From Mariniblastus sp. (GTDB taxonomy: Bacteria; Planctomycetota; Planctomycetia; Pirellulales; Pirellulaceae): DNA of 64,000 nt. The stretch is taken from assembly GCA_029251085.1 (NCBI GenBank), contig JAQXDZ010000061.1, forward strand, positions 46,210 to 110,209, given 5' to 3'. Of this stretch, positions 50,774 through 52,224 are shown piece by piece. The notes beneath the pieces are model-generated. The model did no database searches. It had not been told where the DNA came from and saw nothing but the letters and a program-made list of their open reading frames with translations. How positions within the stretch are numbered: position 1 is the stretch's first letter; every line of letters begins with the position of its first letter. Both the position numbers and the translations under genes were made by a program.

Positions 50774-52126
50774 ATGCAAATGAGATGGCTATTAGTTCTC
50801 GGCTGCCTCCTGATCACTGCTTGCAGTAATCCGGGCGACGAGACATCCCAAACCAAGAATTCTACGCCGGCCCAAGTCGCGTCGAAAACAGAATCTCCGG
50901 AAGCAACACCTGCTTCGGAAGAAAAGAAACCGGAACCACCCAAGGAAGAAGCTAAGCCTGAACCAAAGCAGGAAGAAGCCAAGCCTGAACCAAAACAGGA
51001 AGAAGCTAAGCCTGAACCAAAACAGGAAGAAACTAAGCCTGACGTTACCGACGCAACACCGGCTGAGCAAATTAAGACAATCATCGCCGAATATTCTAAG
51101 GCCCAAGGTAGCCTGATGACCGAGGCAAGAAAAATGCCGGGGAACAAGGGCCGCGATTTCTACTACGCGAAACTTCCCGAACTACAGCAGAAATGCGGAA
51201 CTGATCTAAACGCAGTTGTCGCTGCCAACGCAGATAATCCCGCTAACTTCGACGCGATCATGTGGATTACCATGAACATGGCCGGGTCGGAAGCTGGGAC
51301 CAAAGCAATGGACACATTGTTTGAAAAGTACATTGACAACGAAAAAATGGTCAACCTTTGCGGCGTCCTCGCACAAGGCAGAATGCCCGTTAAAAATGTT
51401 GATGAAAAGCTCGAGCAATTGATCGAGGAGTCCCCGCACGAGGCTGTGAAGGCTTCGGCAACGATGGCTCTAGCCAAAACCGTCAAAGACGAAACTCGTG
51501 CAGAAGAACTGTACGAATCTCTGATCGCCAACTACGGAGATTTGACAAGTCCGATGACTCGCGGCAAAACTTTTAAAGAAGCTGCCGACAATGCTCTCTT
51601 CCAACTGAAGTATCTAAGCATTGGCAAAGTCGCTCCCGATATCGAAGGGGAAGACCTTGATGGAGTCGCCTTTAAGCTGAGCGACTACCGCGGCAAAGTT
51701 GTCGTACTCGACTTCTGGGGCGATTGGTGACCACCGTGCCGGGCTATGTACCCACACGAGCGGTCGCTCGTAAAAACACTTGCTGACAAACCATTCGCAA
51801 TTATTGGTGTCAACAGTGATCGTGACCTGGAAAAAATCCGGGAAACAACCAAGCAGAAAAACATCTCATGGCGTAGTTTCTGGAACGGTCCTCAAGGAAC
51901 CGGCGGTCCCATTTCGACTCGCTGGGGTGTTACCGGATGGCCAACCATTTACATCATCGACGCTGAAGGAAAAATTCGGTACAAAAACGCGCGAGGTCCA
52001 AAAATGGACGAAGCACTTACTGAATTGTTAGCGGAAATGGGCCATGAAGTGGATCTCACGAATCATGAAGATCCCGGTGAAGCGCCAAAAGATGACGCAA
52101 AGGAAGACGCTAAACCTAATCCGTAA
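50774..52126 (+). CDS. TlpA/thioredoxin-like lipoprotein with in-frame TGA (predicted selenoprotein)
   Basis: The ORF track splits this gene in two (50774..51730 and 51746..52126), but both halves are in the same frame and form one 450-residue protein. It starts with a lipoprotein signal (LLVLGCLLITAC, Cys17), then a charged, repeat-containing linker to residue ~95, a helical domain, and a thioredoxin-like domain: KVVVLDFWGDW, TGA, PPCRAMYPHERSL, then IIGVNSDRDLEKI and VTGWPTIYIIDAEGKI with the cis-proline. The TGA (51728-51730, residue 319) replaces the first cysteine of WCPPC, giving W-U-P-P-C. Selenocysteine is my reading; a nonsense mutation is the alternative. Confidence 0.85.
50951..51031 (+). 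repeat. Three 27-base repeats coding AKPEPKQEE
   Basis: Three nearly identical 27-base units encode a nine-residue repeat, AKPEPKQEE, in the linker of the redox lipoprotein. They likely form an extended charged spacer between the membrane anchor and the redox domain. Confidence 0.9.
51756..51771 (+). promoter_or_regulatory. Candidate bacterial SECIS hairpin for the thioredoxin-like gene
   Basis: ACGAGC pairs perfectly with GCTCGT around a GGTC loop. The loop starts 32 bases after the TGA. Bacterial SECIS elements lie just downstream of the UGA, with a G early in the apical loop; the E. coli fdhF loop also contains GGUC. The lower stem is not obvious and no bulged U is seen, so function is unproven. 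Confidence 0.6.
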
Positions 52127-52190: not shown

Positions 52191-52224
52191 ATGCGGCCTG
52201 AGTCTTCTCGGGCCGCATTTTTTT
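52191..52224 (+). terminator. Rho-independent terminator after the thioredoxin-like gene
   Basis: ATGCGGCC pairs with GGCCGCAT around a 12-base loop, followed by seven Ts. This marks the end of the plus-strand transcript just before the convergent AhpD-like gene, and supports the view that the gene ends at 52126 and not at the TGA. Confidence 0.9.

Follow-up and report, generated by a model that had tools for sequence, protein, structure and literature searches.

Two adjacent open reading frames on the forward strand of a Mariniblastus sp. contig raise the question of whether the TGA codon between them ends a gene or is read as selenocysteine (Sec) at the redox cysteine of a single thioredoxin-like lipoprotein. 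The two frames (50774..51730 and 51746..52126 of the 64,000-nucleotide stretch analyzed, hereafter the window) were in the same register with the TGA at 51728-51730 as their sole separator, as a first-pass annotation made from the sequence alone had stated. The joined translation placed U319 within DFWGDW-U-PPC and gave a predicted complete selenoprotein gene (50774..52126) of 450 amino acids, ending in a TAA stop codon at 52124-52126. On the sequence evidence set out below, we regard it as almost certain that the gene encodes one selenoprotein in which UGA codon 319 is read as Sec.

The predicted protein begins with a putative signal peptide (50774..50824) carrying the lipobox I-T-A-C, a motif kept in orthologues that points to Cys17 as the lipidated residue. 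This is followed by a disordered linker (50825..51055) with PEPKQEEAK repeats (50930-51043), the copy number of which differed between orthologues, and by an all-helical domain of residues about 96-280 (51059..51613) that had no Pfam match and was delimited in an AlphaFold model. The model (7 sequences) had a mean pLDDT of 70, with a confident helical domain and low confidence in the active-site loop and at residues 1-91 (pLDDT < 50). The C-terminal part consists of a thioredoxin-fold (TlpA/ResA, AhpC-TSA) domain (residues 283-421; 51620..52036) recognized by Pfam and by structure comparison. On the joined protein the AhpC-TSA, Redoxin and Thioredoxin_8 families spanned the TGA unbroken (residues 283-403; E = 3e-20), with PF00578 scoring 72.7 bits against a cut-off of 26. 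The in-frame TGA (51728..51730) occupies the position of the first cysteine of WCPPC in TlpA/ResA-type thioredoxin domains, and Sec319 would be the first residue of a UPPC redox motif, of the UxxC type, with Cys322 as its partner. The rest of the fold lies downstream, including the cis-proline motif TGWPTIY (residues 387-393; 51932..51952), and the gene is followed by an intrinsic-terminator-like hairpin and T run (52191..52222; hairpin proper about 52193-52214). The placement of the TGA at the redox cysteine, the downstream remainder of the fold and the terminator had all been proposed in the first-pass annotation and were borne out.

The source assembly (5.49 Mb, 171 contigs, estimated 92.7% complete) encodes the machinery for Sec insertion. 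All four genes for which the first-pass annotation had proposed a search were found: a tRNA-Sec (selC) with anticodon TCA (67 bits), SelA (593 bits), SelD (256 bits) and a SelB (367 bits) with a C-terminal SECIS-binding winged helix (SelB-wing_3). SelD (L017:1387-3603, minus strand) carried a pyridine-nucleotide-disulphide oxidoreductase domain fused to its N-terminus. Across 392 genomes of the phylum, selA was present in 80 of the 84 with a TGA homologue compared to 162 of the 308 others, a comparison uncorrected for phylogeny. It was undetected in the remaining 4 of these 84 genomes and in 5 of 26 relatives carrying a TGA homologue; the selA-less TGA genomes were mostly, not all, incomplete assemblies (G003, 92% complete; G322, 91%). 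Among 60 close relatives selA was common in both groups and its co-occurrence with a TGA homologue was not significant (P = 0.25).

Homologues were taken from the 60 related genomes and the 392 genomes of Planctomycetota, with identical contexts removed, and most best matches in both sets contained exactly one TGA. Column 319 was TGA in 99 and TGC or TGT in 19 of 118 distinct Planctomycetota contexts, and the partner position (+3) was Cys in 99/99 TGA genes. The exchange between TGA and Cys thus fell exactly at the column of residue 319, where the first-pass annotation had suggested looking for it. One further distant homologue had TTC at this column and neither cysteine. The Mariniblastus genome itself had no fewer than four Sec genes of this family (the window gene and those on C23, C50 and C124) and one Cys paralogue (L063), whose clade adjoined Sec genes of the same genus in the tree (support 94). 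The minimum number of Sec/Cys changes was 7 on this unrooted tree. Tandem pairs of Sec family members were observed in several relatives (L066, L070, L037, L102 and L099).

A candidate bacterial SECIS (bSECIS) core hairpin was located at 51756..51771, with arms ACGAGC and GCUCGU around the loop GGUC (51762-51765) and a folding energy of -7.9 kcal/mol when folded alone. The first-pass annotation had described a GGTC-loop hairpin 32 bases past the TGA, and the loop indeed starts at the 32nd base. A published bSECIS model has an apical loop of 3-9 nt with a G in the first two loop positions, an upper stem of 4-16 bp, a UGA-to-loop distance of 16-37 nt and an MFE of at most -7.5 (PMC13188914). The hairpin agreed with every number of this model (4-nt loop, 6 bp, 31 nt, -7.9 kcal/mol). 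However, 53 of the 2579 TGA triplets of the window (about 2%) have a similar hairpin within the permitted spacing, and the hairpin by itself is therefore weak evidence. We take its conservation across the aligned genes, not its mere presence, as the strong evidence.

The 16-mer ACGAGCGGTCGCTCGT, which forms the 6-bp hairpin with its GGUC loop, was found in 84/99 Sec genes and in 0/19 Cys genes, and in those 84 its start was fixed at exactly 28 nt after the first TGA base. Codons +11 to +13 were CGG in 91/92 (Arg), TCG in 90/90 (Ser) and CTC in 96/97 (Leu) cases, against shares of 18, 24 and 35% for these codons in the rest of the genes, and the codons neighboring these near-fixed positions drifted freely. 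Codons 9-14 had a dS of zero among close orthologues, compared to 0.11-0.42 for the other post-TGA segments. L142 carried a compensated C-G to U-A stem change at the cost of a Val to Met replacement, L157 and L037 had G-U pairs in the stem, and about eight sequences (e.g., L135, L143, L153) had a differing hairpin region. Used as a blind probe, the exact 16-mer was present in 68 of the 392 genomes, compared to 4 for a reversed control, and of 30 sites that could be read, 28 had the in-frame TGA of the family 28 nt upstream. It serves as a 16-base probe that recovers family genes almost error-free. The hairpin was not matched by any Rfam family. One point against the SECIS reading is that a segment of 66-69 nt from near the UGA, folded in isolation, preferred another structure that paired the UGA region; a ribosome sitting on the UGA would presumably melt this competitor. 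The idea of one shared cassette for all selenoproteins of the genome was dropped: when the Mariniblastus genome was searched for the hairpin with one mismatch allowed, the four Sec family members were the only matches correctly spaced from a TGA.

The arms of the hairpin also encode H-E-R and S-L-V (conserved HERSLV), and the pairing register sets the third bases of the His, Glu, Leu and Ser codons against the first bases of the Val, Leu, Glu and Arg codons. Because wobble bases pair with first codon bases, nearly all compensated changes alter an amino acid, and the near-freezing of the SECIS is probably due to this double duty of the arms in pairing and coding. The double duty accounts for the fixation without the need for a sequence-specific SelB. 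The degree of fixation is unusual, since bSECIS elements are mostly dissimilar to one another (PMC13188914). A compensated change that would be silent throughout, pairing Arg AGG with Ser TCT, was absent, and this absence leaves SelB some scope for reading the sequence. It is conceivable, though in our judgment rather doubtful, that recognition of the base sequence by the SelB of these bacteria also helps to keep the 16-mer unchanged, which would make the 16-mer a fixed, portable Sec-insertion signal, in contrast to most bacteria, whose SECIS elements do not resemble one another. The family provides a natural set of genes in which to examine how strongly the demands of coding and of Sec insertion together fix a sequence.

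Standard annotation would read the TGA as a true stop and the downstream frame has an ATG at 51746, so that the locus could be a recent pseudogene, two genes, or an error for TGC or TGT. However, the same TGA recurs across many families of the phylum in separate, independently made assemblies, which excludes the sequencing error that the first-pass annotation had proposed to check for. The sequence 3' of the TGA had a median dN/dS of 0.09 in close orthologues, indicating purifying selection and excluding a dead downstream tail, and it holds half of the redox motif (Cys322) together with the remaining fold; we give a true stop practically no credence. A genome-wide reassignment of TGA to one of the standard amino acids (Trp, Gly or Cys) would equally have the TGA of the window gene read through, but 33 of the 99 TGA-containing homologues terminate in TGA, which excludes such a code change. 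Other long frames of the window do so too (8 of the 32 frames of at least 250 codons end in TGA, the first of the two frames studied here included), in keeping with the normal code assumed in the first-pass annotation. Moreover, the hairpin follows TGA and not Cys, and the genome has a true tRNA-Sec; a reassignment is just as extremely improbable as a true stop.

Sec decoding in general competes with termination, and it could be argued that insertion is inefficient by design, with a functional 318-residue lipid-anchored helical protein and with selenium supply setting its ratio to the redox form. The helical domain (96-280), modelled as a complete and confident fold upstream of the TGA, is consistent with this; the truncated form would, however, be without the entire catalytic motif, and no sequence mark of selection for a 318-residue form was seen, making the proposal very unlikely. 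Reading UGA 319 as Sec, as the first-pass annotation proposed, is favored by the Sec machinery, by the TGA/Cys exchange and by the independent assemblies. SelB and Sec-tRNA-Sec would translate the codon, recruited by the hairpin with its loop 31 nt downstream. The product would be exported as a lipoprotein anchored through Cys17, followed by the flexible linker, the helical domain and the C-terminal TlpA/ResA-like thioredoxin domain.

Three further frames of the genome contained an in-frame TGA. A 554-amino-acid frame with EF-hand-like repeats on the minus strand of L211 (G000:C113; TGA at 1355 of the reverse complement) has a deiodinase-like motif, GCLTU-PPF, and is a second kind of selenoprotein candidate. 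Two AhpC/TSA-domain frames (L201:1624, plus strand, G000:C41; L209, minus strand, 1201, C25) have the motifs TGGU-TLQC and ASWU-AGC, respectively, and hairpins that differ from the family 16-mer.

The function of the thioredoxin domain is less firmly indicated than Sec insertion. The closest solved structures were TlpA, ResA and DsbE-type oxidoreductases (2lrn, 1jfu, 1st9, 4nmu), and the thioredoxin fold, UxxC and cis-proline are all present as in a TlpA/ResA-like oxidoreductase, with the active-site loop modelled poorly. The U319/C322 pair may carry out thiol-disulfide exchange outside the cytoplasm, with Sec as the attacking nucleophile, and from its sequence the domain is somewhat more likely than otherwise to act as a disulfide reductase. 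A peroxidase or oxidase, which is compatible with Sec insertion, is suggested by AhpC-TSA as the top Pfam score and by another, Prx-like Sec candidate of the genome. This role is unlikely given the UxxC motif with cis-proline WPT and nearest structures (ResA, TlpA, DsbE) that are thiol-disulfide oxidoreductases; Prx selenoproteins carry TxxU instead (PMC1088965).

Selenoproteins with an AhpC/TSA domain and a UxxC motif (Prx-like thiol:disulfide oxidoreductases, PF00578) have been published (PMC1088965, PMC13188914). Sec use in planctomycetes has also been described, the selenoproteomes P1 and P2 comprising a number of predicted selenoproteins alongside the Sec machinery (PMC4807772); the main-text passages on these selenoproteomes do not describe the present planctomycete family or its frozen SECIS, and a search of one literature collection found no published description of the lipoprotein family. 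No NCBIfam model, selenoprotein models included, reached its cut-off on the joined protein, so that annotation would split family genes into two truncated parts. The ResA-like WAxxUGC selenoprotein model NF041054 also describes a thioredoxin-fold Sec protein, but its motif is UGC rather than UPPC and the joined protein scored 30.5 bits against a cut-off of 300, which places it outside that family. With domain class and Sec use already published, the novelty lies in the planctomycete family together with its architecture as a lipoprotein, the number of its copies and the freezing of its SECIS. This adds to Planctomycetota a family of redox selenoproteins that occurs phylum-wide in multiple copies and is apparently exported. 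Like TlpA, ResA and DsbE, the protein has a thioredoxin fold in an apparently membrane-attached, exported redox domain with the CxxC position, but it has Sec for the first Cys and a long N-terminal linker and helical region. By domain and motif the gene falls in the published Prx-like/redoxin UxxC class, with which it shares the AhpC/TSA domain, UxxC in place of CxxC and a bacterial SECIS downstream, whereas the planctomycete subfamily adds a predicted lipoprotein signal, the linker, the helical domain and, as its notable part, a phylum-wide and nearly invariant SECIS.
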